Source of the DNA: Blastocatellia bacterium
Lineage (GTDB): Bacteria; Acidobacteriota; Blastocatellia; HR10
DNA length: 64,000 nt
Reading direction: 5' to 3'
Assembly: GCA_025055075.1 (NCBI GenBank)
Contig: JANWYV010000020.1
Location: 1-64,000 of the forward strand
The notes under the pieces were generated by a model that had not been told where the DNA came from, did not search any database, and worked only from the letters and a program-made list of their open reading frames with translations. A program made the position numbers and the translations under genes. How positions within the stretch are numbered: position 1 is the first letter of the stretch; every line of letters starts with the position of its first letter. Positions 10,223-34,086 of this stretch are shown here, one piece after another.

Positions 10223-10301
<79 letters not shown>

Positions 10302-10364
10302 CTTTCTCTTCTCGATGTAGTGCCCCTCGCGATGACATGATGCGTCTCGTCGTTTCCCTCACAT

Positions 10365-10380: not shown

Positions 10381-10503
10381 CCTTGTGGAGCGAAGATGCT
10401 CGTTCCTTGGCCTTCCCGTGAAGAAGCGCGCAGATCGGCATCTTCTTTGAAAGTCGTGGCAAAGCGCGTTCTGCAGGAGATCTCGCGAAGAGGAGAGAGG
10501 CTT

Positions 10504-10519
10504 CGGCATACAATTTGCA
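10504..10519 (+). promoter_or_regulatory. Candidate sigma-54 promoter before the HemA-like gene and resB
   Basis: CGGCATACAATTTGCA: GG at 10505-10506, ten bases, GC at 10517-10518. The -12 element TTGCA is perfect and the -24 element partial. Transcription would start near 10530, about 38 bases before the ATG at 10568, leaving room for a perfect Shine-Dalgarno. Confidence 0.45.
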
Positions 10520-10567
10520 AGAGCCATGAGAGCTGGAGGAAACTGTGAAGGCGGAGGTGAGGAAACG

Positions 10568-10810: not shown

Positions 10811-10848
10811 GCGAAGGGTCGAGACTGTTCTGATCCTTCGGAGGAACA

Positions 10849-12384
10849 ATGATGAACGAATCAAGGCGCGAACCGATCGAACAAGAAGGCGCGAGCCCGC
10901 AAGAGCCGTCGGCGAGCCCAGCGGCAGTGTCGGCGCTGGGAACTGTGGATCGGTTCCTCCGTTGGCTCAGCTCACTGCAGGTGGGAATCGCCCTCATGCT
11001 GATTCTCATTGTGGCGGCGATCGTTGGCACCCTCATCCCACAGCACAATATGGAAGAATTCGACCGATTCTACGCACGACTGACGCCGGCTGAACGCGCC
11101 CTCTATGATCACCTAGGGCTCTTCGATGTGTACCATTCCTGGTGGTTCACGGCGGCGGTCTTTCTCTTCGCCCTGAACCTCGTGTTGTGCTCGATTGATC
11201 GCCTTCCGATGACGCTTCAATATCTGCGCGAGCCTAAGGTCTCGGCCACCCCGCTCTTCGCCCAGTCGCAACCGTTTTACGAGATGCTCTTGGTCGCTCG
11301 CCATTCGGCGGACGTTGTAGATCGGCTCACTCATCTCTTCGCCCGGTTCGGATGGCGACCGCGCCAGACGGTGAATACGCCGTTTCCAACCGTCTTCGGC
11401 GAGCGGGGGGTGTGGAGCCGATGGAACTTCTTCCTCGTGCATGGTTCGCTCCTTGTGATCCTCGGGGCGGCTTTCGTCGGTGCGCGATGGGGATATGAAG
11501 GGACGATGATCCTCTCGCCGGGCACGCGAACCCAATCGCTGACTCTACCAGGTTCGCGCTGGCGCGGCATCCCGGAACGCCAGATGCCATTGCCCTTCAC
11601 CGTCCGATGCGAATCATTGCGCGTGGCATTGAAAAACCCGCGCGGTCCGCTCGTGCCGCAGAATGTCATCAACTGGTACACGGACATCGTAATCGAAGAG
11701 GCGGGCAATGAGCGAAGGGCGACCATCGCCGTGAATAAGCCATTCGATTATCGCGGGTACCGCTTCTTTCAATCAGGGACGGGACGTCCGGGCGATGCCA
11801 GCCGTATCACGCTCGTGATTCGCTCCGAGATGGGACCGGAGCGCACCTTCTCTCTCGCGAAGAACCAAGCTGTAACTGTACCCGAGCTCGGCGAGGTTCG
11901 CTTCCTTCGCTTCGCTGGCGATTTTCGAGGATCTTCCGCCTCGGGATCAGATGGCTATGAGAATCCAGCGGCGGAGCTTGAGGTCACCTTGGCTTCAGGG
12001 GAGCGGCATGTGTTCTGGGTCTTTCCTGAAACGCCCGGACGATGGGAGACGACGCGCGGGACGGTATGGGAAGGATACCCTTCAGGATATCGCTTCGTCC
12101 TCAAGGATTTCGACAAGGTGAGCTTCGAGCACATCCTTCACGTACAATACGACCCCGGCGTCGGCGCCATCTACGTGGGCTTCGCCTTGCTCGCCCTCTC
12201 GCTCTCCATCGTCTTCTTCTCCGCTCACGAGCGCGTCTGGGCCGTCCTGGAACCAGAAGGGTCCGACCTCAAGATCCATCTCGCCGCTCATGCGAATCGA
12301 AATGAGGAGCGCCTGAGAGAGCGTTTTCACGCGCTTGTGCGCGAGCTTTCGGAAGAGATCGCCGCGCGCCCACCGACTCAATAG
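10849..12384 (+). CDS. resB: ResB/Ccs1-like cytochrome c biogenesis protein
   Basis: 511 residues. Four membrane segments are visible: LQVGIALMLILIVAAIVGTL, WWFTAAVFLFALNLVLC, FFLVHGSLLVILGAAFVG, and GAIYVGFALLALSLSIVFF near the C-terminus. A large domain of roughly 250 residues lies between the third and fourth, outside the cytoplasm. This is the ResB fold of system II cytochrome c maturation, which works with ResC/CcsA to deliver heme to apocytochrome. No ResC/CcsA is encoded next to it. GGAGG precedes the start (ATGATG, either is usable). The oxidase gene at 22363 has a CxxCH that would need this machinery. Confidence 0.88.
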   Translation: MMNESRREPIEQEGASPQEPSASPAAVSALGTVDRFLRWLSSLQVGIALMLILIVAAIVGTLIPQHNMEEFDRFYARLTPAERALYDHLGLFDVYHSWWFTAAVFLFALNLVLCSIDRLPMTLQYLREPKVSATPLFAQSQPFYEMLLVARHSADVVDRLTHLFARFGWRPRQTVNTPFPTVFGERGVWSRWNFFLVHGSLLVILGAAFVGARWGYEGTMILSPGTRTQSLTLPGSRWRGIPERQMPLPFTVRCESLRVALKNPRGPLVPQNVINWYTDIVIEEAGNERRATIAVNKPFDYRGYRFFQSGTGRPGDASRITLVIRSEMGPERTFSLAKNQAVTVPELGEVRFLRFAGDFRGSSASGSDGYENPAAELEVTLASGERHVFWVFPETPGRWETTRGTVWEGYPSGYRFVLKDFDKVSFEHILHVQYDPGVGAIYVGFALLALSLSIVFFSAHERVWAVLEPEGSDLKIHLAAHANRNEERLRERFHALVRELSEEIAARPPTQ

Positions 12385-13622
12385 ACGAATTCCCGTACAT
12401 CGTAGAGGCTGATTCTCGGTCGCTCTAGGGAAGAGGCGAATCGCATCCCCTCACGGATGCGCCGAATCTGCTGCTTCAGCTCTTGGGGAGTGAGCGCGCG
12501 AATGCCAAAGGCGCGCGCTTTCTCCTCGTAGTCCGATCCCGGATGGACATAGAGTGGCGAGAGGTAGATGATATCCTCACGACCGAGGGGCATCTCATTA
12601 AGCAAAGCGATCGTCTCTCGGACGTGCGGTTCGAAGAAGATGTCCCCTCCCAAGCCGATGAGGATGATGACCCCAACCGAGAGCCCAGCCGCCTTGATGC
12701 GAGAGACGACCTCGAGCGCCTCGCGCGCCGTGCCCGGTTTGTTCACGAAGCGCAGCAGCTCATCATGCCCGCTCTCGACGCCCAGGTAGAGGCGTTTGAC
12801 ATGCCACGATTTGAGGGCGGCGAAGTCCTCGACGGTCTTGCGCATCCCGCTGTAGGCGTCCAGGAATGAGTAGATACCGTCCAGTGCTCCCTCCCGCTCG
12901 TTCGATCTCGCTTCGAAGGAAAAGGCCTCGTGAATGATCTCCAGAAGGCGCACGAGTCGTTCCTGAGGGATGATGAGGGCGTTCGCATCGGCGAGAAAGA
13001 GCGAGCGCCGAAGGGTGATGGAATCCCCAAGGAATTCCCGCACGGCTGCGATGTGGCGGCGCACCTCATCATCGGTCTTGATCCGAAATCGGCGATCGCG
13101 ATAGAAATCGCAGAACGCGCATTTATTCCAGTGACAGCCTTCAGTGACTTGAAGCACGAGGGCGAGATACTGATCAGGCGGAAGGATGCTGACGGGCTTG
13201 TAAACGGAGAGAAATCGCTCTCGATCGCGGGCATAGGCATAGATATCCCACGCGAGGATCCGTTCCAGCCAGCACTCAAGGTCCTCCTCCGAGAGCGCCC
13301 TCCCCTTCCCAAAGACTTCGATGCGCACGCGACCTCGACGAAAGGCCACAACGATCTCATTCACCTTCGACCACAATTCGGCCAAAAACGCGCGCGCCTC
13401 TTCCTCCGTGAGGACGCGGATGCGCTTGGGAGCCCAAGGTGCTCCCTCGTCATGCCACTTCTCCAGGACGATCCCGCTCAACCCCCGGACGAAGGTGTGC
13501 CCGTCTCGGTACGCCGCGTACAGTCGTCCCGCGCGATCGAAAGAGAAGACGAACCGACCGTCATCCATGATCGAAAGTGAGTGCGATTTGGCACTGATCA
13601 TGAGGGCGTTCGTATCGTACAC
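12378..13622 (-). CDS. Radical SAM protein of unknown function
   Basis: 414 residues. The radical SAM cluster motif is CHWNKCAFC near residue 160, that is CX4CX2C, one residue longer than the canonical CX3CX2C. After it come typical barrel elements (LFLADANALIIPQ, LYLGVESGHDELL, and VGVIILIGLGGD), as in the Elp3/MiaB/NifB-type family. The first ~150 residues are a separate domain with no name I can give. GTG 13622 is chosen over ATG 13601 because AAGGAGGAACC sits at perfect spacing before the GTG. The gene converges on resB with a 7-base overlap. The substrate is unknown. Confidence 0.82.
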   Translation of the reverse strand: MYDTNALMISAKSHSLSIMDDGRFVFSFDRAGRLYAAYRDGHTFVRGLSGIVLEKWHDEGAPWAPKRIRVLTEEEARAFLAELWSKVNEIVVAFRRGRVRIEVFGKGRALSEEDLECWLERILAWDIYAYARDRERFLSVYKPVSILPPDQYLALVLQVTEGCHWNKCAFCDFYRDRRFRIKTDDEVRRHIAAVREFLGDSITLRRSLFLADANALIIPQERLVRLLEIIHEAFSFEARSNEREGALDGIYSFLDAYSGMRKTVEDFAALKSWHVKRLYLGVESGHDELLRFVNKPGTAREALEVVSRIKAAGLSVGVIILIGLGGDIFFEPHVRETIALLNEMPLGREDIIYLSPLYVHPGSDYEEKARAFGIRALTPQELKQQIRRIREGMRFASSLERPRISLYDVREFVY

Positions 13623-13745
13623 GGTTCCTCCTTGGCGTCGAGCTTCCTTTCGGAAGGATATCAGGAGATCCCATCCTTCGCCACCTGAGGACGAATCGGC
13701 GCGAATCCCGGTCGCCGTGCGCCGCTTTCCACGGCCGCGACATGA

Positions 13746-13751
13746 TATAAT
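13746..13751 (+). promoter_or_regulatory. TATAAT box directly before the Crp/Fnr gene
   Basis: A perfect -10 hexamer with a poor -35 region. The start of transcription would fall near 13758, almost on the ATG at 13760. This suggests a leaderless or nearly leaderless mRNA, or translation from the in-frame ATG at 13790. Confidence 0.55.
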
Positions 13752-13759
13752 CTTCGGCC

Positions 13760-14467
13760 ATGCAGAGGGGATTGGACATTCCGACCCGCATGAACACGCT
13801 GCGCAAGGTCACCTTCTTCTCGACGCTCAGCGAACTGATGCTGCGCGCCTTGGCCGAGGCTTGTCGGCCGAGGCAGTATCAAAAGGGTGAGATCCTCTTC
13901 CTCGAAGGAGAACCGTGCCCGGGACTCTTCGTGGTGCACTCGGGCGCAGTGAAGATTTTCAAGACTTCGCCTGGAGGGCGCGAGCAGGTGCTGACGATCG
14001 AATCCGAAGGGCGCCCGATCGCAGAACTCGCCGTCTTGGACGAAGGTCCCTACCCGGCTTCCGCCATGGCCGTCGAAGATACGACGGTCCTGCTCATTCC
14101 CAAAAGCGATTTTCATCGGCTCTGCCGTCAGCATCCGGAGATCGCCTTCGGCATCATCCGCTCACTCGCTGGACGGTTTCGGCGACTCGTGGGCTTGATC
14201 GAAGCCCTCGCTTTCTTGGAAGTCGGGCAACGTCTAGCCCGATGGCTCTTGGAAAAGGCCCGTCATGAAGGAAAGCGAACTCCCCGTGGCCTGGAATTCG
14301 CCCTCGACGTGACGCATCACGAATTGGCCGCGCAGATTGGGACAGTACGCGAGCTGGTCTCTCGAACGCTCCGTCGCTTCCAGCAGCAAGGACTGCTCGC
14401 CATTGAGAACCGCACGATCGTCCTTCTCGACCTGGACCGCTTGCAGCAAGAAGCGGAAGGGGAATGA
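13760..14467 (+). CDS. Crp/Fnr family transcriptional regulator
   Basis: 235 residues. The N-terminal cyclic-nucleotide-binding-type beta barrel (about 30-140) has the turn EGEPCPGLFVVHSGAVKIF. The C-terminal winged helix-turn-helix reads THHELAAQIGTVRELVSRTLRRF, the Crp recognition-helix pattern (here VRELVSR). No N-terminal Fnr-type cysteine set is present, so an oxygen-sensing cluster is unlikely. The gene is divergent from the radical SAM gene. A TATAAT lies just before the first ATG, and no Shine-Dalgarno is seen for either 13760 or the in-frame ATG 13790. Ligand and targets are unknown. Confidence 0.9.
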   Translation: MQRGLDIPTRMNTLRKVTFFSTLSELMLRALAEACRPRQYQKGEILFLEGEPCPGLFVVHSGAVKIFKTSPGGREQVLTIESEGRPIAELAVLDEGPYPASAMAVEDTTVLLIPKSDFHRLCRQHPEIAFGIIRSLAGRFRRLVGLIEALAFLEVGQRLARWLLEKARHEGKRTPRGLEFALDVTHHELAAQIGTVRELVSRTLRRFQQQGLLAIENRTIVLLDLDRLQQEAEGE

Positions 14468-14533
14468 ATCTCCTCCTCTGGAAGCGCCCTGAGCCAAATT
14501 CGTGCCCGCTCCACAATGCTTAGGAAGGCGGCG

Positions 14534-14546
14534 GGGGAAAATCCCC
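14534..14546. promoter_or_regulatory. Palindrome GGGGAAAATCCCC, candidate activator site
   Basis: Arms GGGGA and TCCCC flank AAA, nearly the same as the palindrome at 417-430. It is centred about 127 bases before the -24 element at 14667, a typical distance for a sigma-54 enhancer site. The role is inferred. Confidence 0.4.
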
Positions 14547-14665
14547 ACTCGGTGCTGATTTTCGCGCAAAGCGCGTCGTCTGGCAGGAGGCCTTCCTCCG
14601 AAGACGAACACCCCAAGTTGTGAAAAATCAAGGCGAAGGGGGATGAGGGCTTCCCCTCCCTGCTT

Positions 14666-14682
14666 TGGTACGCCGCTTGCAT
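14666..14682 (+). promoter_or_regulatory. Strong candidate sigma-54 promoter with no gene directly after it
   Basis: TGGTACGCCGCTTGCAT matches the consensus at all but one base (T for C, a common variant). GG at 14667-14668, ten bases, GC at 14679-14680. Transcription would start near 14692. The next coding start is 343 bases away and has its own promoter. Confidence 0.6.
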
Positions 14683-14691
14683 AATCCAAAA

Positions 14692-14808
14692 GTGGACATC
14701 ATCCTGGGATCTTTGACATCGGCCGCCTGGTGGCGCAGGCCGACCTCGCCTTGCATGCCTTCCACAAAGACCTCACCACAAAATGGCCCGGCCACCAGGG
14801 GCCTTTTT
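14692..14808 (+). ncRNA. Candidate small RNA from the sigma-54-like promoter
   Basis: The predicted transcript is about 117 bases. It contains a hairpin CGGCC-GCC-TGGT-GGC-GCA-GGCCG near 14723-14747 and ends in the intrinsic terminator at 14785-14808. The loop side CCTGGTGGC of the first hairpin is complementary to GCCACCAGG inside the terminator hairpin, so the two structures could compete, as in an attenuator. No ORF with a ribosome binding site lies in it. I recognise no RNA family. It could be a free small RNA or an attenuated leader. Confidence 0.35.
14785..14808 (+). terminator. Intrinsic terminator
   Basis: GGCCC (14785-14789) pairs with GGGCC (14799-14803) around a short loop and is followed by TTTTT (14804-14808). 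It is the only clear stem plus T-run in the gap. Confidence 0.6.
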
Positions 14809-14977
14809 CTATGCGCGCGACCGATCTCTCCATGGTGTTCGATCGCAGACAGCTAATCGGTGCTCAAGCGCACTGGAACAAGCGATATATCCCGCTCGTT
14901 CAGAAGGCCCACCTTTCCCTATTGGAAAGGAACCAACAAAAGGTGCACGGTTTGAGCTTTTGGGATCTCCGCGACCT

Positions 14978-15007
14978 TTGCCGCGTTCTCCCATTTTCGG
15001 ATATTCT
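14978..15007 (+). promoter_or_regulatory. Sigma-70-type promoter of the alanine dehydrogenase operon
   Basis: TTGCCG (14978-14983), 18-base spacer, TATTCT (15002-15007). The predicted start near 15014 leaves room for AGGAAAG before the ATG at 15035. Confidence 0.5.
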
Positions 15008-15034
15008 TGTCTCTGTTCTGAGGAAAGCGGGCGT

Positions 15035-16183
15035 ATGATCGTGGGCATTCCTAAGGAGCGACTGATTCTCAAAGGGGTTGAGGAGAAGCGCGTGAGCCTC
15101 TCGCCAGCCGGAGTCCGCGAATTGACGGCGCTCGGCGCCGAAGTCGTGGTGACGGCTGGAGCTGGCCTCGGAGCGGGATTCACTGACGAGGAATATCGGG
15201 CTGTCGGCGCGCGCATCGTGTATTCGAATGAAGAGACGATTCGGCGAGCTGATCTCATCCTCAAGGTGCAACGTCCGACCTCCGACGAATGGGAGTTCTT
15301 CGAGGAGCGCTCGGCGTTGATGGCCTTTTTGCATCTGGCCGTCGCCCCGAAAGAGTTCCTTCGCGCGCTTGTGGAGAAGCGAATCACGGCGATCGGCTTC
15401 GAGATCGTCCAGGAGCCAGATGGTACCCTCCCGATCTTGAGATCCTCAAGCGAGATCGCGGGGAAGATGGCCGTTCAAATCGCCGGTCGCCTCCTGGAGA
15501 GCACATTCGGAGGGCGTGGGATTTTGCTCGGGGGGATCCCAGGAATTCCTCCAGCAGATGTGGTGATCCTCGGTGGAGGAACTCTCGGCTATTACGCCGC
15601 GCGGTCGTTCCTCGGCATCGGAGCCAGCGTCTACATCCTCGACAAGGATATGAAGCGGCTCATGGAATTGGACAAGCTCTTCGAGGGGAAAGTCGTGACG
15701 GCCCTGGCGACGGCGAGCAATATTGAGAAATTCGTGGCCTTCGCCGATGTCCTCATCGGAGCTGTGCTCGTGCCCGGACAGCGTGCCCCTGTGCTCGTCA
15801 CCAAGGAGATGGTCCAACGAATGCGTCCGGGGAGCTTGATCATGGATTTCTCCATTGATCAAGGGGGCTGCGTGGAGACTTCGACGTTGACGCCGAGCGA
15901 GGATTTCTTGTTCACGAGCTATGGGGTGACTCACTTCTGCGCGCCGAACGTGCCGGCTATGGTGGCGCGCACGTCCACACACGCGTTGACCAACGCCGTG
16001 CTCCCGTACTTGCGGGAGATCGTTCAGAGTGGGCTTCTGTCCGCGCTCAAGCGAAACAGTGCGTTGCGGCGCGGCCTCTACGCATTTGCCGGATACCTCA
16101 CGCACGCCCTTCCGTTTCCGGCCCTTCCGCAAGCCGACTTGGAACGCATGGTGGAGGACGCCGATGATGCACTGGATGGATGA
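15035..16183 (+). CDS. ald: Alanine dehydrogenase
   Basis: 382 residues, close to the usual ~370. It catalyses reversible NAD-dependent deamination of L-alanine to pyruvate and ammonia. Family marks in order: KER-EEKRVSLSPAGV (substrate Arg), LILKVQRP (Lys) and FLHLA (catalytic His), SSEIAGKMAVQ, nucleotide-binding VVILGGGTLGYYAA, DFSIDQGGCVETS and the C-terminal block APNVPAMVARTSTHALTNAVLPYL. The open frame begins earlier at 14783, but ATG 15035 has AGGAAAG before it and matches family starts. Proton-translocating transhydrogenase alpha subunits are related; the length and motifs favour alanine dehydrogenase. Pyruvate made here could feed PFOR in the same operon. Confidence 0.88.
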   Translation: MIVGIPKERLILKGVEEKRVSLSPAGVRELTALGAEVVVTAGAGLGAGFTDEEYRAVGARIVYSNEETIRRADLILKVQRPTSDEWEFFEERSALMAFLHLAVAPKEFLRALVEKRITAIGFEIVQEPDGTLPILRSSSEIAGKMAVQIAGRLLESTFGGRGILLGGIPGIPPADVVILGGGTLGYYAARSFLGIGASVYILDKDMKRLMELDKLFEGKVVTALATASNIEKFVAFADVLIGAVLVPGQRAPVLVTKEMVQRMRPGSLIMDFSIDQGGCVETSTLTPSEDFLFTSYGVTHFCAPNVPAMVARTSTHALTNAVLPYLREIVQSGLLSALKRNSALRRGLYAFAGYLTHALPFPALPQADLERMVEDADDALDG

Positions 16184-17567
16184 ATACCGAAAGCGGCGCG
16201 TGACGGCAGAGGAAGCAGTAGCGCTGGTGAAGTCCGGGGACCGTCTCTTCGTGAGCGGGAATGCCGCGACTCCCCTGGTCCTCTTGGAGGCGTTGGCGGC
16301 ACGCGCTCATGAGTTGGAGCGCGTCGAAGTGACGCACGTCCTATTGGTAGGGGAGGATCCGCTCTCCCGTCCGGAGACGCGGGATCGTTTTCGACACAAC
16401 TCGCTCTTTGTCGGGCCGGCAGATCGCGCGGCCGTCAACGAAGGGCGTGCTGACTATGTCCCGATTCACCTTCATGAGATTCCCCGCCTCTTTAAGAGCG
16501 GCCGTCTGCCTCTGGATGTGGCACTCATTCAGACGACGCCCCCGGACGAGCACGGCTTCATGAGCTTGGGCGTGGAGTGTCTGGCAACGATGGCGGCCAT
16601 CGCGAGCGCGCGCATCATCCTCGCCCAGGTCAACGACCAAATGCCTCGCACGCTCGGCGATTGCTTCGTGCACGTCTCGCGCATCACGCGGCTGTGCGAA
16701 GTCTCCTGCCCGTTGCCCGAACTCCCACGTTCGAACTTCACCGAAGTGGAGCGGCGCATCGGCGAATATGTGGCTGAATTGGTCGAGGACGGCGCGACGC
16801 TGCAGCTCGGCATCGGGAGCATTCCGGACGCCGTGCTCGTCGCCTTACGAGGCAAGCGCGATTTGGGCATCCATACGGAGATGGTCTCCGATGGGATCAT
16901 GGAAGCCATTGAGGCCGGCGTCATCACCGGCGCGCGTAAGACGATCCATCCGGGCAAAGTCGTTTGCACCTTCGCTTTCGGGAGCCGACGCCTCTACGAG
17001 TATTTGGACAACAATCCGCTCTTTGAGTTTCACCCGTGCGATTATACAAACGATCCGTTCATCATCGCGCGCAACGAGAAGATGGTCGCGATCAACTCGG
17101 CGATCGAGGTGGATCTGACCGGACAGGTCTGTTCCGACTCGATCGGGACGCAGATTTATTCGGGTTTTGGCGGGCAGCTCGACTTCGTGCGCGGCGCCGC
17201 GCACGCCCCCGGCGGAAAGCCGATCATCGCCATGCCTTCGACAGCGCGCGGGGAGACGGTCTCGCGTATCGTTCCACTCTTGAAACCTGGAGCAGGAGTT
17301 GTGACCACGCGCGCGGACGTACATTATGTGGTCACCGAATACGGGATCGCGGACCTGCACGGGAAGAACCTGCGGGAACGCGCCCAAGCGCTCATCCGTA
17401 TCGCTCATCCGAAATTCCGCGAGGAATTAGCCCGCGCCGCGCGCGAGCGTCGGTTGCTGCCTCCTCTCTTCCACTTCGGGGAGATGCCGCGTGTTCCCGA
17501 AGAACCTGCAGCGTCTCCCACACATGCTTCTGAATCTTCGCCATCTGAAGGAGAAAGAACGCCATGA
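16164..17567 (+). CDS. Acetyl-CoA hydrolase/CoA-transferase family protein
   Basis: 467 residues of the 4-hydroxybutyrate CoA-transferase / acetyl-CoA hydrolase family. The catalytic glutamate is in GIHTEMVSDGIMEA. The C-terminal part has GGQLDFVRGA and VTEYGIADLHGKNLRERA, typical of this family. It moves CoA between acetyl-CoA or a similar thioester and a carboxylate. GGAGG six bases before ATG 16164 sets the start (ATG 16167 is also possible), so the gene overlaps the alanine dehydrogenase end by about 20 bases. It overlaps the PFOR start by ATGA. It may recycle acetyl-CoA formed by PFOR to acetate or exchange CoA with succinate; the substrate cannot be told. Confidence 0.85.
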   Translation: MMHWMDEYRKRRVTAEEAVALVKSGDRLFVSGNAATPLVLLEALAARAHELERVEVTHVLLVGEDPLSRPETRDRFRHNSLFVGPADRAAVNEGRADYVPIHLHEIPRLFKSGRLPLDVALIQTTPPDEHGFMSLGVECLATMAAIASARIILAQVNDQMPRTLGDCFVHVSRITRLCEVSCPLPELPRSNFTEVERRIGEYVAELVEDGATLQLGIGSIPDAVLVALRGKRDLGIHTEMVSDGIMEAIEAGVITGARKTIHPGKVVCTFAFGSRRLYEYLDNNPLFEFHPCDYTNDPFIIARNEKMVAINSAIEVDLTGQVCSDSIGTQIYSGFGGQLDFVRGAAHAPGGKPIIAMPSTARGETVSRIVPLLKPGAGVVTTRADVHYVVTEYGIADLHGKNLRERAQALIRIAHPKFREELARAARERRLLPPLFHFGEMPRVPEEPAASPTHASESSPSEGERTP

Positions 17568-20500
17568 GGCCATCATCCCGACCATTGGTGACGCTCGACG
17601 GCAATGAGGCCGTCGCCTCCATCGCTTATCAGCTTAATGAAGTCATCGCCATCTATCCCATCACGCCGTCCTCGCCGATGGGCGAGCTGGCCGACCAATG
17701 GGCGTCCGAAGGACGACCAAACCTTTGGGGCACGGTGCCCACTGTCATCGAGATGCAGAGCGAAGGAGGAGCGGCCGGCACCGTGCACGGCGCCTTGCAA
17801 GCAGGCGCTTTGACGACGACCTTCACCTCGGCGCAAGGCCTGCTTCTGATGATCCCCAACATGTACAAGATCGCTGGGGAACTGACGGCGACGGTCTTCC
17901 ACGTGGCGGCGCGTTCGCTAGCTACACACGCTCTCTCGATCTTCGGCGATCACAGTGATGTTATGGCCGCGCGCGCGACCGGATTCGCGCTCTTGGCCTC
18001 CGGCTCCGTGCAAGAGGCCATGGACATGACGCTCATCGCGCAGGCGGCGACGTTGGAGGCGCGCATTCCTTTCCTTCATTTCTTCGATGGCTTTCGCACC
18101 TCTCACGAAGTGATGAAGGTGGAGATGCTCACGCCCGATGATCTTCGGGCGATGATTGACGACGAGCTGGTGCGCGCGCACCGCGAGCGCGCCCTCTCGC
18201 CGGATCGTCCCTGTATTCGCGGGACGGCGCAGAATCCGGACGTATATTTTCAGAGCCGCGAGGCTGTGAACCCCTTCTACCGCGCCTGTCCGACGATCGT
18301 CCAGAACGTGATGGAGAAGTTCGCTCGTGTGGTCGGACGGCACTATCACCTCTTCGACTACGTCGGTGCTCCTGACGCTGATCGAGTGCTCGTGCTGATG
18401 GGTTCGGGCGCGGAGGCCGCACACGAGACGGTCGAACACTTGCTCGCGCGTGGCGAAGCCGTGGGCCTCGTAAAGGTCCGCTTGTATCGTCCTTTCTCCG
18501 TCGCGCACTTCATTGCCGCTTTGCCTTCGACGGTGCGCGTTCTGGCTGTTTTAGATCGCACGAAGGAGCCAGGCAGCATCGGCGAGCCGCTCTACTTGGA
18601 CGTCGTCACGGCCGTGCACGAAGCAATGGCCGAGGGACAAGCTCCCTTCGCCGCGCTTCCGCGCATCCTCGGCGGCCGCTACGGCCTCGCCTCGAAGGAG
18701 TTCACTCCAGCCATGATCAAGGGCATCTTCGACGAGATGAAGAAGGCCCATCCGAAGAATCACTTCACCATCGGGATCCACGACGATGTCACGCACACGA
18801 GCCTCGAATATGATCCGACCTTCTCCACCGAGGATCCGCAAACCGTGCGCGCCGTCTTCTACGGCCTGGGGGCTGATGGGACGGTGAGCGCCAACCGGAA
18901 TTCGATCAAGATCATCGGGGAGCACACGGACTACTACGCGCAAGGCTACTTCGTCTACGACTCGAAGAAGGCGGGCTCGATGACCATTTCTCACTTGCGC
19001 TTCGGTCCACGGCCGATTCGCTCGACATATCTCATCACGCGGGCCAACTTCGTCGCCTGTCATCAATTTCCGTTCTTGGAGCGGATCAACGTCCTGAAGG
19101 TCGCCGAGCCGGGGGCGACATTCCTGCTCAACAGCCCGTATGGGCCGGAGGAAGTCTGGGATCATCTCCCCCGCACGATCCAACGCGAGATCATCGAGAA
19201 GGGACTTCGCTTCTTTGTCATTGATGCTTATCGGGTTGCTCGCGAAGCGGGCTTAGGCGGACGCATCAATACGATCATGCAGGCATGCTTCTTCGCGCTC
19301 ACGACCGGTGAATACCCGAACTCTGCCGCGCGTTCAGACGATCGCGGGGGATACCTGAAAGGCGCCCTCTCGCTCGACCAAGCGCTCGCGTCCATGCGTG
19401 AAGCGATCGTGCAAACCTATGGCAAGCGTGGCCCGGCGATTGTGGAAAAGAACCTCGCGGCCGTTGATCGTGCCTTGGAGAATCTCCACGAGGTTCGCGT
19501 CCCCGGGCGCGTGACGAGTGCTTTCGACCTTCGTCCGCCGGTGCCTCCGGAGGCGCCAGAATTCGTCCGTCGCGTGACGGCGCGAATGATCGCTGGTGAG
19601 GGCGACGAATTGCCCGTGAGCGCCTTTCCACCGGACGGCACATATCCGAGCGGCACAACGCGGTGGGAGAAGCGAAACATCGCCACGGAGGTCCCCGTGT
19701 GGGATGAAGACCTCTGCATCCAGTGCGGCAAGTGCGTGCTCGTCTGCCCACATTCGGTCATCCGGGCGAAGGTGTATGATCCGGCGCTCTTGGCCGAAGC
19801 TCCGCCCACCTTCAAATCGGCACCGGCACGATGGATCGAATTCAAGGGCTGGCGCTACACGCTGCAGGTCGCTCCGGAGGATTGCACCGGATGCGCCCTC
19901 TGCGTCGAAGTCTGCCCGGCCAAGAGCAAGAGCGAGCCTCGCCATAAAGCGATCAACATGCAGCCGCAGGCCCCGCTTCGCGAGACGGAGCGCGCGAATT
20001 GGGAATTCTTCCTCCGCTTGCCAGAGGTGGACCGACAGAAGCTCCATTTCGGTCAAGTGAAAGACATCCAGCTTCTAGAGCCGCTCTTTGAGTTCTCCGG
20101 GGCCTGCGCCGGATGCGGCGAGACGCCCTACATCAAATTGCTCACACAGCTTTTCGGCGATCGCCTGCTGATCGCGAATGCGACGGGTTGTTCTTCGATC
20201 TACGGCGGGAACCTCCCCACGACGCCCTACACGTTCAATCGCGAGGGGCGCGGACCGACCTGGTCGAATTCGCTCTTCGAAGATAATGCGGAATTCGGTC
20301 TTGGGATGCGCTTGGCCTTGGACCAACAGGCAGCATATGCGCGTCTTCTCCTGCGTCGCCTGGCCTCGGAGATCGGCGAAGCCTTGGTCGAAGCATTGTT
20401 GGAAGCTGATCAATCCACCGAGGAAGGGATTGCGCGCCAGCGCGAGCGGGTTCGCCTGTTGAAGGAGCACTTGGTCACGCTCCCCCATCCGGAGGCCCGT

Positions 20501-22362: not shown

Positions 22363-23739
22363 ATGCATTACCCATGGTGGTATGTCCCTTTCCTCACCGC
22401 TCCCATGCTCATCGCCATCATCTCCGTCCTCCATGTCCTCGTCGCCCACTACGCCGTCGGCGGCGGACTCTTTCTCGCCGTTGAGACGCAGTACGCCTAT
22501 CGGCAGAACCATCGCGAATATCTGGCGTACCTAAAGGAACACGCCTGGTTCTTCATCCTGATCACCGTCGTCTACGGCGCGATCACGGGCGTCGGCATTT
22601 GGTGGACGATTGGCGTCGCGTCACCCCTGGCGACGCAAACCCTCATCCACATCTTCGTCTTCGGATGGGCGATGGAGTACGTCTTCTTCGTCCTAGAGAT
22701 CGTCTCGGCGTTCATTTTCTACTACTTCTGGGGACGGCTCGACCCGAAGACGCATGTGCGTATAGGATGGATCTACGCCGGATCGGCGTGGATGAGCCTT
22801 GTCTTGATCACCGGGATCACGGCCTTCATGTTACATTCGGGCCGATGGCCGGAGGAGCGCACGTTCTGGACGGGCTTCCTGAACCCACAGTTCATCCCGC
22901 AAGTCCTCGCGCGAACGGGTGGAGCATTCCTGCTCGCCTCGCTCTACGTCTATCTGCACGCCGCTTTCAAGGTGAAGGATCCCGCTCTGCGTGATCTGAT
23001 CGCCGCGCGATCGACCCGACCGGCACTCCTTGGCTCTCTATTGATCATCCTGGGAGGGATCGGATGGTATCTCACCCTCCCGGAATCGGCGAAGGCCGCC
23101 CTCGCCGCCGCGAGTACGTTGAACATCCTCGTCGTGCTCATCTTCGCCGTTACGATCGCCGTGTTCTTTATGTTCTATCTCGGCCCCTATCGAAATCCGG
23201 GATGGCTCTCGCCTGGATTCGCCATCCTCTTTTTCACCTTCGGGCTCACGGCGATCACTACTGGCGAATACATCCGCGAGGCCGTGCGGAAGCCCTACAT
23301 CATCTACAACGTCGTTCTGGGTAATCAGATTTACGCGGAGAAGGTGCCGGAGCTTCGCCGAACTGGTTATCTCGAAGGAGGAACTTGGACGAAGGCGTGG
23401 GTGAGACACCACTATCCTCAAGTCTTGAACGACGAGCGCATTGATCCTAAGCGATTGCTCACACTCCCAGAAGAGGATCAGGTGAAGCTTGGCGAAGTCC
23501 TCTTCCTCTACCACTGCAATGACTGTCACTCAGGACGACGTGGTTTCTCCGCTGTCGGGCAGTTGATCCGCGGTTGGACGCCGGACATGGTACGCACAGT
23601 CGTCAAGCATCCGGAGAAGGCCCATTTCTTCATGCCCCCTTGGGCTGGCACATCCGAAGAAGCGGAGCTGCTCACGAAATATCTCATTCGGATCGCCCAG
23701 CCGCGCCCGGCTGGGATGTACTTCGGAGAGGAGAAATAG
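22363..23739 (+). CDS. bd-type oxidase subunit I-like protein with fused cytochrome c domain
   Basis: 458 residues. About eight membrane segments follow the CydA pattern (first: VLHVLVAHYAVGGGLFLAVE with candidate heme-ligand His). After the membrane part comes a soluble tail with one CxxCH (CNDCH, near 385-389) and a candidate Met ligand in FFMPPWAG, so a covalently bound heme c outside the cytoplasm. Canonical quinol-oxidising CydA has a Q-loop and no heme c. A cytochrome c domain points to oxidases of the bd superfamily that may accept electrons from c-type cytochromes. GGAGG precedes the ATG. The next gene, 10 bases on, is its partner. Confidence 0.82.
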   Translation: MHYPWWYVPFLTAPMLIAIISVLHVLVAHYAVGGGLFLAVETQYAYRQNHREYLAYLKEHAWFFILITVVYGAITGVGIWWTIGVASPLATQTLIHIFVFGWAMEYVFFVLEIVSAFIFYYFWGRLDPKTHVRIGWIYAGSAWMSLVLITGITAFMLHSGRWPEERTFWTGFLNPQFIPQVLARTGGAFLLASLYVYLHAAFKVKDPALRDLIAARSTRPALLGSLLIILGGIGWYLTLPESAKAALAAASTLNILVVLIFAVTIAVFFMFYLGPYRNPGWLSPGFAILFFTFGLTAITTGEYIREAVRKPYIIYNVVLGNQIYAEKVPELRRTGYLEGGTWTKAWVRHHYPQVLNDERIDPKRLLTLPEEDQVKLGEVLFLYHCNDCHSGRRGFSAVGQLIRGWTPDMVRTVVKHPEKAHFFMPPWAGTSEEAELLTKYLIRIAQPRPAGMYFGEEK

Positions 23740-23749
23740 GAGGCGGCTT

Positions 23750-24886
23750 ATGGATCCCACGACCTTGATCGGACCCTCGAGCCCATTGGGATATCCCGCT
23801 CCGTATTGGTTCCTCGTCGCGTTCAAAGTCCTGGGATTTACGCTCCACATGATCCCCATGCATATCTGGTACGCGGGAGTGCTGCTGGCTATGCTCCTTC
23901 AGTGGCGTGGAGGAGAGGAGGCGCAGCGGCTCTCGCGACGCTTGATGCGACCGATGCCGATTTTGATCGCCCTCGGAATCAATTTCGGCATCGTTCCCCT
24001 ACTCTTCACCCAAGTCGCCTACTACAAGGTCTTCTACCCGGCGACGATCTTGATGGCTTGGCCCTGGGTGAGCATCATCGTGCTCCTCACGCTCGCCTAC
24101 TACGGCGTATACATTTACGTCTCTGGACTGCGTACCGAGAGCGCCACGATCGCGCGCTGGCGACAAGGCGTCGGCTGGATGACAGCCGCGTTTTTCCTCA
24201 TCATTGGCTTCTTCTTCTCGAACGCTTTCAGCTTGATGACTAACCTGCGCGCGTGGCCTGATCTGTGGCTCCGTGACAGCATCAGCGGTGCGCCACTCGG
24301 AACCGTCTTGAATACCGGGGATCCGACGCTCTGGCCGCGTTGGCTCATGATGTTCGCCTTGGCCCTGACGACGACGGCGGTCTTCATCGTCGTGGACGCT
24401 GAATGGTTCGCCGTTCGAGAGGGGGCCAGCTATCGCATCAGCGCTCGACGCATTGCCTTCATCGTTTCCACGATCGGGGTGATCGGATTCGCCATCACCG
24501 GCTCTTGGTATGTCTTCGGAACATGGCCTGTGGAATTGCAAGAGAAAATGCTCCATAGTCCGCTGCGCGTGCTCACGGGATTAACGGCGCTCAGCCCCGG
24601 AGCGCCTTGGCTCTTGATCCTTTGGCAGTGGCGAAAGGGAGGGACGCGGGTGCTTGCTGCGGTGACTGCCCTAGCTCAAGTCCTCGTGCTCGCCCTCAAT
24701 GCCATCAGCCGTCAGATCGTGCAAAACGCGGAGCTCAGCCGATTCCTAGACGTCACGGCGGAACCCGTTCGGATCGAATGGAGCCCCTTGATCCTCTTTC
24801 TCCTGCTCTTCATCATGGGACTTGGTATAGTCGCCTGGATGCTCAGTAGGCTCAGGGTGATCGGGAGCGCGAGCGGGAGCGCATAA
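23750..24886 (+). CDS. Second CydA-like membrane subunit of the bd-like oxidase
   Basis: 378 residues with about nine hydrophobic segments. The N-terminus (FKVLGFTLHMIPMHIWYAGVLLAMLLQW) resembles the first helix of CydA with candidate His ligands, while the rest is divergent. It does not look like CydB. GAGG lies before the ATG and the gap to the preceding gene is 10 bases, so one transcript. Together the two proteins would form a heterodimer in which both halves are CydA-related. Which hemes each binds needs alignment. Confidence 0.75.
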   Translation: MDPTTLIGPSSPLGYPAPYWFLVAFKVLGFTLHMIPMHIWYAGVLLAMLLQWRGGEEAQRLSRRLMRPMPILIALGINFGIVPLLFTQVAYYKVFYPATILMAWPWVSIIVLLTLAYYGVYIYVSGLRTESATIARWRQGVGWMTAAFFLIIGFFFSNAFSLMTNLRAWPDLWLRDSISGAPLGTVLNTGDPTLWPRWLMMFALALTTTAVFIVVDAEWFAVREGASYRISARRIAFIVSTIGVIGFAITGSWYVFGTWPVELQEKMLHSPLRVLTGLTALSPGAPWLLILWQWRKGGTRVLAAVTALAQVLVLALNAISRQIVQNAELSRFLDVTAEPVRIEWSPLILFLLLFIMGLGIVAWMLSRLRVIGSASGSA

Positions 24887-26118: not shown

Positions 26119-27738
26119 TCACACCTTCAGGACGGTCCTCGTCACCATCGGTTCCTTCCCGGCGAGATATGCCTCCAACGGGATCGAGAAGCTCTGCTCG
26201 ATCTTCTCGCGGAATGTGATCCCAGAGTTATACGTGCAGAAGGGATAGATGCGCCCATCGGGAGCCGAATAATGGATGACGCAACGCATGACGCGATCGA
26301 GTTGGTAGTTGTAGGCATCCATGAAATGCATCCCAGCGACCATGAGCGTTCGATAGGTGAGCTGCTGTTCATTCTTTCCGCGCCCGATGCGCTTATCCAC
26401 AAGTCCTTCGAGGGTTCGGAGGAACTTCACATAGGTCAATCCTGGTGGTGCCGCCTCCGGACGGAAGAATCGCTGCAGGACGACATACGCTGTCATTGCC
26501 CGCAGCTTCTTGGAAGGGAGCTGACGGATCCGTGGTGCCCACTCACGAAACGCTCGCAGCATTCCCTCCACATCCACGAAGCGCGTGACGGGGATCGCCG
26601 TCTTCGTCCGCGCGTCCACAAAGAGATACGTCGCCAGCGAACAATGCGGATGACAGCTCAGGGCGATCGTCTCCTCTCCTTGCAGGGCGCTCAAGAACTG
26701 CGAGAATGAGACGGTGCATGGTGTGGGATACCAATCATGATAGGTGTCCACGATTCCGGTTTGTTCGGCCAAGTCTTTCACCAAGTCGGTGAGCGTATAC
26801 CGCATTTGCTCCCGTTTCTTTTGCGCAATTCGCCCGGTGAACGTCACCGGCTGATACGTGATGCCCGACGCGACATCAATATTCTCGATGGCGAAGTGCA
26901 AGATGCGACCGACCTCATGATCGTTTACCCCGCGCGCGATCGTCGGGACGAAGACGATCTTCAATCCCGCCCGACGGGCGGCTTCGATGGCTCGCTGTTT
27001 CAGCTCCCAGAGCGGCTGCCCGCGCGTCTTGCGATAGACCTCGTCACTCACGCCGTCGAACTGGAGATAAAGTGTATGTAATCCGGCCTCGGCACATCTC
27101 TCAGCGAAGCCAGGCTCGGTAGCGAATCGGAGGCCGTTTGTGGCGACCTGAATGTGCGAGAACCCCAGATCTCGCGCCATCCGCACGGCCTCAATGAAAT
27201 GGGGATAAATCGTAGGCTCCCCGCCCGAGAATTGAATGACACGGGCCGCAACCGGGCGCATCTCGCGCAGTTGCCGCAGCATCCGATAGACCTGCTCCAG
27301 CGAGGGCTCGTAGACGTAGCCCGCCACGTTCGCGTTGGCGAAGCAGACGGGACAGGTCAAGTTGCAACGGTTCGTCAGGTCAATGTTGGCCAAGCCCGTA
27401 TGGCTCAAATGCATCTGACAGAGACCACAATCCTGTGGGCAAAGCACGGCATCCGGCACGGCTGGGTTGGAGACGCCTCGCCCCCCCTCAAATGCCCACT
27501 CCTCGGCCTTCAGATAAAGGCGAACATCAGACCAAACGATGTCGCGAAACTCGCCGTGCTCCGAGCATCGTTTCTCCATCATCACCCGTCCCTCGTGCTC
27601 GAAGATGCGTGCAGGGATGACGCGACAACACTCCGGACAGAGAGACTCGACGAGCTTCGGTAATCCCTTCGGCAGCGGAGCCACTGGCGCCCCGCAGTAG
27701 GTTCTCCAAGCCCTCTCTCGCACGACGCTTCTTGCCAT
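26119..27738 (-). CDS. Radical SAM enzyme related to tetraether/membrane-spanning lipid synthases (Tes/MJ0619 type)
   Basis: 539 residues. An N-terminal zinc-ribbon-like region has SLCPECCRVIPARI and RCSEHGEF, then CPQDCGLCQMHLSHT, then the SAM cluster motif NRCNLTCPVCF (CX3CX2C) followed by QFSGGEPTIYP. This cysteine layout and wording (LCPEC-RVIPARI, CGLC--H---T-LA-IDLTNRCNL) is that of the MJ0619/Tes family, which joins lipid tails carbon-to-carbon in archaeal tetraethers; bacterial relatives are linked to membrane-spanning lipids. ATG 27738 with GGGAGGAGG is the start; the open frame upstream to 28026 is not coding. A partial sigma-54-like promoter lies 46 bases upstream of the start. The lipid role here is inferred. 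Confidence 0.75.
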   Translation of the reverse strand: MARSVVRERAWRTYCGAPVAPLPKGLPKLVESLCPECCRVIPARIFEHEGRVMMEKRCSEHGEFRDIVWSDVRLYLKAEEWAFEGGRGVSNPAVPDAVLCPQDCGLCQMHLSHTGLANIDLTNRCNLTCPVCFANANVAGYVYEPSLEQVYRMLRQLREMRPVAARVIQFSGGEPTIYPHFIEAVRMARDLGFSHIQVATNGLRFATEPGFAERCAEAGLHTLYLQFDGVSDEVYRKTRGQPLWELKQRAIEAARRAGLKIVFVPTIARGVNDHEVGRILHFAIENIDVASGITYQPVTFTGRIAQKKREQMRYTLTDLVKDLAEQTGIVDTYHDWYPTPCTVSFSQFLSALQGEETIALSCHPHCSLATYLFVDARTKTAIPVTRFVDVEGMLRAFREWAPRIRQLPSKKLRAMTAYVVLQRFFRPEAAPPGLTYVKFLRTLEGLVDKRIGRGKNEQQLTYRTLMVAGMHFMDAYNYQLDRVMRCVIHYSAPDGRIYPFCTYNSGITFREKIEQSFSIPLEAYLAGKEPMVTRTVLKV

Positions 27739-27794
27739 AGGCCTCCTCCCACTCCATATCTTGGGCAAAAAGACTCCTTGACACATTTCTTGAA

Positions 27795-30650: not shown

Positions 30651-31679
30651 ATGGAAGCGACGCTGACCCGCGAACAACTCCTGGACATGTACTACTACAT
30701 GAAACTGACCCGGATGGTGGAGGAACGCCTGCAACGCCTCTACCGACAGGGGAAGATCGTGGGAGGGCTCTATCGCAGTCTCGGACAAGAGGGCGAGTCC
30801 GTCGCCAGCGCCTATGCCCTCGAAGAGGGAGATTTCTTGGCGGTGATGATCCGGAATCTGGGCGCGCTCTTTGTGCGCGGCGTCCGCCCTTGGGAGATTT
30901 TCACTCAGTACATGGGCAAAGGAACGAGTCCAACACGCGGCAAGGATAACATCGTTCACTTTGGGAGCGTAGAGCGCGGCATCATCCCTCCGATCAGCCA
31001 CCTCGGCGATCTCATCCCGGTAATGGCTGGCATCGCGCTGGCTTCGAAGATGCAACGAAAGCGTTCGGTTGCTCTCACCTATATCGGCGACGGCGGAACG
31101 AGCACAGGGGCGTTCCACGAAGGATTGAACTTCGCTGCCGTCTTAAAGCTTCCTCTGATCGTCATTGCCGAAGATAATGGGTATGCCTACTCGACGCCCA
31201 AGCATAAGCAAATGGCCATCGAGAACATCGCCGATCGCGCGATCGGATACGGGATCTTCGGCGAGACAGTGGACGGCAACGATGTCATCGCCGTGTATCA
31301 GGCCACGCGCCGCGCTATCCAACGAGCGCGCGAGGGCCTGGGGCCGACCTTGCTCGAGGTCAAGACCTTTCGCATGCGCGGACACGCCGAACACGACGAC
31401 GCGTGGTATGTTCCTCGCGAGCTGCTCGAATATTGGCAGAAGCGCGATCCGATCCTGCGCTTGGAGACCTATCTGAAAGAGCATGGCATGGCCGACGAGA
31501 CCGATTTCGAAGCGATCACTCGTCGCATCGAGGAGGAGATCGAGGCCGATCTTCAATATGCGGAGCAATCGCCAATGCCCGACCCGCGGATCGCCTTAGA
31601 AGATGTGTATGCCGAAGCCCCTTCCGTTCTGGAAGGGGCTCCTCGACCGCGTGAGCACGCGGCGAAGACGCGATCTTGA
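30651..31679 (+). CDS. pdhA: 2-oxoacid (pyruvate/branched-chain) dehydrogenase E1 alpha
   Basis: 342 residues. The thiamine-diphosphate motif GDGGTSTGAFHEGLNFAAV ... EDNGYAYST is complete, and RMRGHAEHDD is the family's substrate-loop block. It decarboxylates the oxoacid and reductively acylates lipoate on E2. First gene of an operon with E1 beta, E2, LipB-NUDIX and LptFG. Sequence alone does not separate pyruvate from branched-chain oxoacids; the organism already has PFOR for pyruvate, so either is possible. GGAGAGGG lies before the ATG. Confidence 0.88.
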   Translation: MEATLTREQLLDMYYYMKLTRMVEERLQRLYRQGKIVGGLYRSLGQEGESVASAYALEEGDFLAVMIRNLGALFVRGVRPWEIFTQYMGKGTSPTRGKDNIVHFGSVERGIIPPISHLGDLIPVMAGIALASKMQRKRSVALTYIGDGGTSTGAFHEGLNFAAVLKLPLIVIAEDNGYAYSTPKHKQMAIENIADRAIGYGIFGETVDGNDVIAVYQATRRAIQRAREGLGPTLLEVKTFRMRGHAEHDDAWYVPRELLEYWQKRDPILRLETYLKEHGMADETDFEAITRRIEEEIEADLQYAEQSPMPDPRIALEDVYAEAPSVLEGAPRPREHAAKTRS

Positions 31680-31695
31680 GGAGGCACCGTCACCT

Positions 31696-32670
31696 ATGCC
31701 CGTGTTGACTTATTTGGAGGCTATTCGCCAGGGACTCTGGGAAGAAATGGAGCGCGATGAGCGTGTCTTCCTGCTCGGTGAAGACATCGGCGTCTACGGC
31801 GGCGCCTTCAAGGTCACCGAGGGTTTCCTCGAGCGCTTCGGCGAAGAGCGCGTCATTGATACGCCGATCTCGGAAGCGGCCATCGTGGGCGCGGCCATCG
31901 GAGCGGCGCTGGTGGGATTGCGCCCAGTCGCTGAGATGCAATTCATTGATTTCATCTCTATCGCTTTCGACCAATTGACGAATTTTGCCGCGAAGTGCCG
32001 ATATCGCTGGGGGGCGGGCGTCCCCATCGTCGTGCGCGGCCCTTGTGGCGGCGGCGTGCACGGTGGCCCCTTTCATTCGCAGAACGTCGAGGCGTATTTC
32101 TTCCACACGCCTGGGCTGAAGATCGTGGAGCCCGCTACGCCATACGATGCCAAGGGCCTCATCAAGGCCGCCATCCGGGATGAGGACCCCGTGCTCTATT
32201 TCGAGCACAAGTATCTCTACCGCCGCATCCGAGGGGAAGTGCCCGAGGGGGACTACATCGTTCCCATCGGGAAGGCGGACATCAAGCGCCCTGGTCGGGA
32301 TGTCACCATTCTGACCTACGGATGGATGCTCCACAAGTCGCTCGAAGCGGCGGAGCTTGTCGCGCAGGAGGGCATTGAAGTCGAGGTCGTGGATTTGCGG
32401 ACGCTCCTCCCCCTCGATGACGAGACGATCCTCAGCTCAGTGGCCAAAACGGGTCGTGCCGTCATCGTTCACGAAGACACGCGCACGGGAGGGATCGCCG
32501 GAGAGCTCGCCATGCGCATTAACGAGCGCATCTTCGAGTATCTTGAAGCGCCCGTCGTTCGCGTCACGGCTCCGGACACGCCAATCCCGTTCAGTCCCCC
32601 GTTGGAGGAATTCTTCCTCCCTCAAGTGGAGGAGATCGTTCAAGCCATCCGATGGGTCGCCAACTATTGA
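31696..32670 (+). CDS. pdhB: 2-oxoacid dehydrogenase E1 beta
   Basis: 324 residues. It begins PVLTYLEAIRQGLWEEMERD and has LLGEDIGVYGGAFKVTEGF, DTPISEAAIVGAAIGAA and DLRTLLPLDDETI, all standard for E1 beta. It forms the alpha2-beta2 E1 with the preceding gene. ATG 31696 is preceded by GAGGAGG; the earlier in-frame start at 31603 would overlap E1 alpha and is not used. Confidence 0.93.
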   Translation: MPVLTYLEAIRQGLWEEMERDERVFLLGEDIGVYGGAFKVTEGFLERFGEERVIDTPISEAAIVGAAIGAALVGLRPVAEMQFIDFISIAFDQLTNFAAKCRYRWGAGVPIVVRGPCGGGVHGGPFHSQNVEAYFFHTPGLKIVEPATPYDAKGLIKAAIRDEDPVLYFEHKYLYRRIRGEVPEGDYIVPIGKADIKRPGRDVTILTYGWMLHKSLEAAELVAQEGIEVEVVDLRTLLPLDDETILSSVAKTGRAVIVHEDTRTGGIAGELAMRINERIFEYLEAPVVRVTAPDTPIPFSPPLEEFFLPQVEEIVQAIRWVANY

Positions 32671-32721
32671 TCAAGGAGGAAGGCCGAGGAGCGCGTTCGC
32701 GCGCTCCAAAGGAGGTGTGGC

Positions 32722-34086
32722 ATGAAAGTCGAAGTCATCATGCCTCAAATGGGTGAGAGCATCGCCGAGGGAACAGTCACCAAATGGCTCAAGAAGCCAG
32801 GTGAGCACGTCCGTCGTGATGAACCGCTCTTTGAGATCTCCACGGATAAAGTGGATGCGGAGATCCCTTCACCGGCCGAAGGAGTTTTGGCCGAGGTGCT
32901 CGTCCATGAAGGGGAGACCGTCCCCATTCAAACTGTCGTCGCTTATATCGAGACGGATAAGGAAGCCGTCGAGGCTCCGCCGCGCGAGGTGAGCGAACGT
33001 GCGACTCCGGTGGCAGAAGCGACACCGCGGAGAGAACCGACGCCCGAACCGGCGCGCGTCGCCCCTTCCGCTGCCGAAGAGCCATCCATGCGCGAGATCA
33101 TCATTCCCCCTCATCCGTGGGAGAAGCAAAAGCAAGAAATCCGTATCACCATCCCGGCCGAGCGCCTTGAGCGAAAGGCTGTGCGTTCATCGCCGGTCGT
33201 GGAGAAGCTGGCCCAAGAGTACGGTATTGATCTCACGCAGATCGAGGGGACGGGCCGCGGCGGACGCGTCACCAAGCGCGACGTCCTGCGATACCTGGAG
33301 GAGCGCGCTGCTCGGCCGTCAGAGGCGCGTCCGCAGCCGATCGAGGCCCCGGAATTGGAGACGCCGCTCTATCCTCCCTATCTCCCCGGAGAGCGCGTCG
33401 AGATCGTCCCGATGAGCGTCATGCGCAAGAAGATCGCCGAACACATGGTCTACAGCAAACGCGTCGCTCCCCATGTGACGACGTTCTTCGAGATCGACAT
33501 GACGCGCGTCAGCCGATTGCGAGATCAGCTACAACCGGATTTCGAACAGCGCCATGGCGTCAAACTCACGTATTTACCGTTCATCGTCCAGGCTTGCGTG
33601 AGCGCGCTCAAAGCCTTCCCGATTCTGAACGCTTCGATCGCCGACGACAAGATCGTCTACAAGAAGGACATCAACATCGGCATCGCCGTCGCCTTGGAGT
33701 GGGGCCTCATCGTCCCCGTCATTAAAAACGCGGATGCGCTCAGTCTCGTTGGATTGGCCAAAGCGATTCACGATCTGGCTACGCGCGCGCGGAACAAGCA
33801 GCTCAAACCGGAGGAGGTCCAGGGAGGGACGTTCACCATCACGAATCCGGGCGTCTTCGGCTCGCTTTTCGGAACTCCGGTGATCAATCAGCCCCAGGTC
33901 GCCATTCTCGGGGTCGGGCGCATCGCTAAGCGCCCCGTCGTCGTGGAGGATGACGCCATTGCGATTCGCGCGATGGCATATTTCTCCCTCTCCTTCGACC
34001 ATCGGCTCATTGATGGGGCTGTCGCCGATCAATTCATGGCGCACATCAAACGAACGCTCGAATCGTTCGAGCTGACGGGAGCTTGA
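32722..34086 (+). CDS. pdhC: Dihydrolipoamide acyltransferase E2
   Basis: 454 residues. A lipoyl domain (1-80) has the modified Lys near 43 in EISTDKVDAEIPSP. A Pro/Glu/Arg-rich linker follows, then a peripheral-subunit-binding domain (about 155-195, SSPVVEKLAQEYGIDLTQI, GTGRGGRVTKRDV) and the catalytic domain with the signature DHRLIDGAVADQF near the C-terminus. It transfers the acyl group from lipoate to CoA. AAAGGAGGTG before the ATG is a near-perfect ribosome site. No E3 (dihydrolipoamide dehydrogenase) is encoded in the window. The lipB gene follows immediately. Confidence 0.94.
   Translation: MKVEVIMPQMGESIAEGTVTKWLKKPGEHVRRDEPLFEISTDKVDAEIPSPAEGVLAEVLVHEGETVPIQTVVAYIETDKEAVEAPPREVSERATPVAEATPRREPTPEPARVAPSAAEEPSMREIIIPPHPWEKQKQEIRITIPAERLERKAVRSSPVVEKLAQEYGIDLTQIEGTGRGGRVTKRDVLRYLEERAARPSEARPQPIEAPELETPLYPPYLPGERVEIVPMSVMRKKIAEHMVYSKRVAPHVTTFFEIDMTRVSRLRDQLQPDFEQRHGVKLTYLPFIVQACVSALKAFPILNASIADDKIVYKKDINIGIAVALEWGLIVPVIKNADALSLVGLAKAIHDLATRARNKQLKPEEVQGGTFTITNPGVFGSLFGTPVINQPQVAILGVGRIAKRPVVVEDDAIAIRAMAYFSLSFDHRLIDGAVADQFMAHIKRTLESFELTGA

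Follow-up and report, generated by a model that had tools for sequence, protein, structure and literature searches.

Introduction

Archaeal tetraether synthase (Tes), also called GDGT-MAS, counts MJ0619 of Methanocaldococcus jannaschii and Saci_0703 among its members, and on the bacterial side a membrane-spanning lipid synthase, Mss, was reportedly described by Sahonero-Canavesi in 2022. brGDGTs are widely used palaeothermometers, the makers and biosynthesis of which are only partly known. In MJ0619, a rubredoxin-like site is formed by C9, C12, C33 and H36, an N-terminal auxiliary cluster is held by C73, C77, C80 and a histidine, and these are followed by the CX3CX2C motif and by a C-terminal auxiliary cluster with the labile ligand M439; the substrate carbon is held by an auxiliary cluster (PMC9433317). 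Tes homologues and a role for them in membrane lipids have already been proposed for other Acidobacteria (Zeng et al. 2022, PMC8941075; Halamka et al., PMC10087280), and Blastocatellia are makers of iso-diabolic acid (PMC12816986; PMC13274423). Here we analyse a bacterial tes gene located in a 64,000-nucleotide stretch of DNA, referred to below as the window.

Results

The tes gene occupies positions 26119-27738 of the window, stop codon included, on the minus strand. It is a complete reading frame of 539 codons that begins with an ATG at 27738 and ends with a stop codon at 26119-26121, and a strong ribosome-binding site, GGGAGGAGG, lies three bases 5' of the ATG (27742-27750, minus strand). 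Reading the same interval on the plus strand is ruled out by the stop codons present there. The 539-residue product scores 582.7 bits (E 5e-175) against the NCBIfam Tes equivalog NF045702, about 130 bits above the curated cut-off of 450. Among solved structures the best match is PDB entry 7tol, the M. jannaschii tetraether synthase MJ0619 (E 9.6e-139), to which the protein is 44.6% identical over 496 columns by BLASTP, and Pfam recognises both the radical SAM family and, at the N-terminus, the 'HMPTM' zinc ribbon PF23545.

All metal ligands of MJ0619 are conserved in the window protein and its relatives. The rubredoxin-like iron site, C34, C37, C58 and H61 (MJ0619 C9, C12, C33 and H36), is encoded by codons 34-61 at 27556-27639 and was identified by alignment and by PF23545. 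The N-terminal auxiliary [4Fe-4S] site follows at codons 100-110 (27409-27441) with the motif C100-P-x-D-C104-G-L-C107-x-x-H110, equivalent to C73, C77, C80 and H83, whereas the radical SAM CX3CX2C cysteines C125, C129 and C132 (C98, C102 and C105) sit within NRCNLTCPVCF at codons 125-132 (27343-27366). In the C-terminal auxiliary cluster region, codons 366-501 at 26236-26643, residues C366, M470, C486 and C501 correspond to C338, M439, C455 and C470 and are invariant across an alignment of 43 sequences. The SAM site is likewise kept, with F133, N135, R239, Q296 and R303 in place of F106, N108, R210, Q268 and R275, the exception being S271 of MJ0619, which is T299 in the window protein. An AlphaFold2 model of the protein (mean pLDDT 89.8) matches the crystal structures 7tom and 7tol with a Z score of 46.3 and an rmsd of 2.0 Å over 481 residues, the next-best fold being MoaA (Z 20.4, 272 residues). 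The initial annotation, which had placed a Tes/MJ0619-like enzyme at exactly this position without giving a strand and had named the N-terminal cysteine pairs, the CGLC--H block and NRCNLTCPVCF, is borne out in its motifs, all of which are present, and supported in its family claim by the curated model score, the ligand conservation, the whole-fold match and the phylogeny described below. The window protein is confirmed as a Tes-type radical SAM enzyme.

The window belongs to a 3.02 Mb genome that is 98.8% complete, and the nearest tes loci come from MAGs named Acidobacteriota, Blastocatellia, HRbin10 and HRbin08; the host is a hot-spring acidobacterium of the Blastocatellia type. All four congeneric genomes searched carry an intact tes of 88-94% identity, whereas the members of the family, order and class that were searched lack such a gene and hold only divergent relatives of up to about 38-40% identity. 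Among 396 acidobacteriotal genomes, 31 give a strong tes match, defined as E 1e-150 or better, and outside the host genus the nearest proteins (56-64%) belong to Solibacteraceae and Terriglobia MAGs. Phylogenetic trees unite all bacterial Tes in one clade (support 100/99), which neighbours Thermoplasmatota and is separate from the archaeal group that contains MJ0619. A few columns are fixed in this clade, such as R166 and K260, positions at which most archaeal sequences carry P and S; none of these columns could be assigned to the lipid pocket from the alignment. Within the clade the window lineage forms an unresolved branch, and a grouping with the Terriglobia Tes, as strict vertical descent would have it, lacks support without being rejected (p-AU 0.098). 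The patchy presence of tes may reflect transfer between bacteria, or loss.

We consider it likely that the window enzyme links two lipid tails, one from each leaflet, through their omega ends, so that a single chain spans the membrane; the tails are most likely of the iso-C15 type. What is observed is the gene, its family and cofactor sites, the predicted fold, the phylogeny and the linkage in relatives; substrate and reaction in the host we infer from MJ0619. Cleavage of SAM at the CX3CX2C cluster would give a 5'-deoxyadenosyl radical that abstracts a hydrogen from the methyl group at the end of the first tail, and the carbon so activated would be bound to a sulfur of an auxiliary [4Fe-4S] cluster, most likely that of the C-terminal region. 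The second tail, turned into a radical with the help of another SAM, would then attack the bound carbon and create an sp3-sp3 carbon-carbon bond; on the model of MJ0619, the two hydrogen abstractions would use two SAM molecules. The natural substrate would most likely be iso-C15-type tails on glycerol-3-phosphate lipids, because iso-C15 and phytanyl tails have like ends (Zeng et al. 2022, PMC8941075) and because coupling at C14 gives the iso-diabolic skeleton: by our own derivation, two 13-methyltetradecanoyl chains joined at C14 would yield 13,16-dimethyl-octacosane, the skeleton of iso-diabolic acid and of brGDGTs. The best reading of the host product is then an iso-diabolic-type membrane-spanning lipid, ester- or ether-linked. 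GGGPS/PcrB was not found in the host genome, making archaeal-type G1P lipids an unlikely substrate, and we set them aside. Counting against tail coupling as the reaction, none of the bacterial Tes homologues has a demonstrated reaction (PMC11868695).

In relatives of the host, tes is linked to genes resembling an ester-to-ether reductase. At three loci, L021 (6001-12117), L022 (6001-11996) and L173 of genome G204 (3955-10129), tes is followed by a protein of about 1,040 aa, carrying two BcrAD_BadFG ATPase domains and a DUF2229, and by a protein of about 430 aa; at the Phycisphaerae locus L049 (926-7509) the same reductase pair precedes tes, so that adjacency is seen in some Terriglobia and in one Phycisphaerae genome. 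At L028 the pair lies 4.4 kb upstream of tes. The type of PlsA homologue validated as the alkyl-ether-forming glycerol ester reductase, Ger, likewise has two activation domains (PMC13274423). The label Ger/PlsA-like rests on the large subunit, since the partner of about 430 aa has no Pfam match above cut-off. Some Ger matches contain an in-frame TGA or TAG; in the one alignment that read through a stop, the stop was located at the C-terminal end, which is nothing unusual. The two genes occur together in 16 of the 396 acidobacteriotal genomes, the reductase only in 5, tes only in 15 and neither in 360 (p 4e-16), so that 16 of the 21 reductase carriers also have tes; counted per genus the figures are 11, 5, 6 and 191 (p 6e-11). 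These p values come from Fisher tests that ignore relatedness, although the genomes with both genes span eight families. The linkage is a new context that emerges from this analysis, and no report of it was found in the literature searched, which took in few subscription journals. A gene for a CDP-alcohol phosphatidyltransferase, a phospholipid head-group enzyme, is also seen near tes at L023, L024, L027, L028, L080, L112 and L119, in several bacterial phyla.

The host genus itself has no full-length Ger of the kind that accompanies tes elsewhere. The best match in the genome search, a PF09989 hit at C45:119854, is a split protein of 31% identity, not of the tes-associated type, and was rejected; the reductase is likewise missing from some of the other acidobacteriotal genomes with tes. 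In a variant of the tail-coupling reading, the host enzyme would use diacyl phospholipids with ester linkages as substrate, and its products would be iso-diabolic tetraesters rather than tetraethers. This variant agrees with the lack of a full-length Ger in the host genus, with the binding of phosphatidic acid in the M. jannaschii Tes site (PMC9433317) and with the occurrence of iso-diabolic tetraesters in K. versatilis (PMC13274423), but in relatives tes accompanies an ether-forming reductase, and the elb-like gene set on host contig C13 makes ether lipids possible. We regard this variant as tentative, at somewhat below an even chance. The C13 set comprises a HAD and fatty acyl reductase protein of 792 aa, a second reductase of 397 aa and two acyl-CoA synthetases, with a PlsC-type acyltransferase and a lipid kinase nearby. 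Elb proteins are required for ether lipids in Myxococcus (PMC9131029).

The host encodes a second relative of Tes, a protein of 689 aa (G000:C6:154002-155462) that is 37% identical to the window enzyme, reaches 323 bits on the Tes model NF045702 (cut-off 450) and belongs to a kind found across the class Blastocatellia, without the N-terminal auxiliary [4Fe-4S] site. Its counterpart in G006, a genome of the same order, is 82% identical and lies at 5795-7948 of locus L165 (G006:C85:31000-50000). On this 19 kb stretch, positions 1489-19001 hold, besides the paralogue, genes for an ElbD-like protein (acyl-CoA synthetase, ACP and acyltransferase), for another acyl-CoA synthetase, for two proteins of the fatty acyl reductase type, for a small radical SAM protein and for a further radical SAM protein that matches a B12 domain weakly and is a candidate lipid methylase or cyclase. 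Host contig C13 holds counterparts of the G006 reductase and of one G006 synthetase gene. The stretch is likely an iso-diabolic/ether lipid cluster of Blastocatellia, and since the class is known for iso-diabolic acid, the class-wide paralogue is a plausible iso-diabolic synthase.

It is possible, if on balance doubtful, that in Blastocatellia the paralogue makes the iso-diabolic acid and the window enzyme makes a second product, for example by condensing diethers to brGDGT or by forming a macrocyclic diether. Such a division of labour would suit the spread of the paralogue across a class known for this acid (PMC12816986), the company it keeps in G006 and the tandem arrangement of Tes and the divergent paralogue in the Solibacteraceae loci L011 (3445-7581, in G419:C173) and L172; against it, the function of the paralogue is itself putative. 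On a broader view, which we hold to be unlikely, tes, the Ger with two ATPase domains and the partner of about 430 aa would form a modular brGDGT-type set across Acidobacteriota and Planctomycetota, while the host lineage would pair the tail-coupling half with an elb-like pathway and a second Tes paralogue, reaching tetraethers by a different route.

The direct neighbours of tes in the host, namely an adenosine-specific kinase, ThiC and 2-oxoacid dehydrogenase-like genes, are not lipid genes. The kinase gene (PF04008; 25557-26054) shares the minus strand with tes, follows it after 64 bases and is probably co-transcribed with it. This adjacency occurs at three congeneric loci and at no other tes locus, and does not imply a role in lipid synthesis; host gene context, limited to ThiC and a kinase whose adjacency is restricted to the genus, was dropped as a functional clue. 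Tes releases 5'-deoxyadenosine, and a tie to the neighbouring adenosine-specific kinase is a speculative thought. Elsewhere in the window, genes at 30651-34086 resemble E1 alpha, E1 beta and E2 of a 2-oxoacid dehydrogenase and could be a branched-chain complex supplying primers for iso-fatty acids, and the region 22363-24886 encodes a protein like cytochrome bd subunit I that carries a cytochrome c domain at its C-terminus and, after it, a protein of 378 aa with no Pfam match.

Do these neighbours speak for a role outside lipid metabolism, such as TrsS-like chemistry or the pterin methylation once assigned to MJ0619, from which the N-terminal zinc ribbon keeps its Pfam name HMPTM? TrsS (NF045646) is indeed the next distinct NCBIfam model, but its score of 355 bits falls below the cut-off of 490, the pterin assignment was rejected on the structure of MJ0619 (PMC9433317), and in relatives it is Ger-like genes that are linked to tes; we find such a role improbable. 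That the gene is a mis-binned archaeal sequence or a decaying transferred copy, as its confinement to the host genus within the class, among the genomes searched, might suggest, is scarcely credible, given that the same flanks (ThiC, a GreA-like factor and 2-oxoacid dehydrogenase-like genes) surround tes in the independent congeneric MAGs L007-L010, which excludes mis-binning, that the congeneric copies are intact, and that the tree places the protein in the bacterial clade.

Discussion

The idea that bacterial Tes makes membrane-spanning lipids is already published. New here are the linkage of tes to the reductase, a hot-spring host lineage that has tes and lacks the reductase, and a paralogue linked to elb-like genes. 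The initial annotation had made its interest in the gene depend on the host being an acidobacterium, which it is, and its proposal of a membrane-spanning lipid enzyme holds as a lead, supported by the linkage and co-occurrence of tes with the reductase pair in relatives. As a close counterpart of the archaeal enzyme, the window Tes is a good candidate for a bacterial route to branched membrane-spanning lipids. A bacterial Tes with every catalytic feature, together with a linked reductase in relatives, turns this suggestion into a two- or three-gene expression test, and bacterial tes could serve as a marker for brGDGT producers in metagenomes. Coming from a hot-spring lineage, this Tes may also be the easiest version for purification and crystallisation.

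How does the enzyme compare with those already described? With the GMGT synthase Gms it would share radical SAM carbon-carbon coupling, which Gms performs on archaeal lipids; Gms has a C-terminal SPASM domain (PMC11186832), whereas a Pfam scan of the window Tes at E 0.001 gives no SPASM match. Mss reportedly has the same catalytic architecture as Tes (PMC13274423) and joins fatty-acid tails, a likeness to the window enzyme taken from the description of Mss. Archaeal Tes agrees with the window protein in domain order, in the four metal sites, in the SAM-binding residues and in fold, and differs from it in that the two are 45% identical, in T299 for S271, in the residues R166 and K260 proper to the bacterial clade, and in the host, in which GGGPS was not found. 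The Tes homologues of Ca. Solibacter usitatus and Ca. Koribacter versatilis (Zeng et al. 2022), likened to it by description, come from the same phylum; their hosts are soil bacteria that belong to other classes and are known to contain brGDGT or iso-diabolic lipids, whereas the window lineage is of the Blastocatellia type and lives in hot springs.
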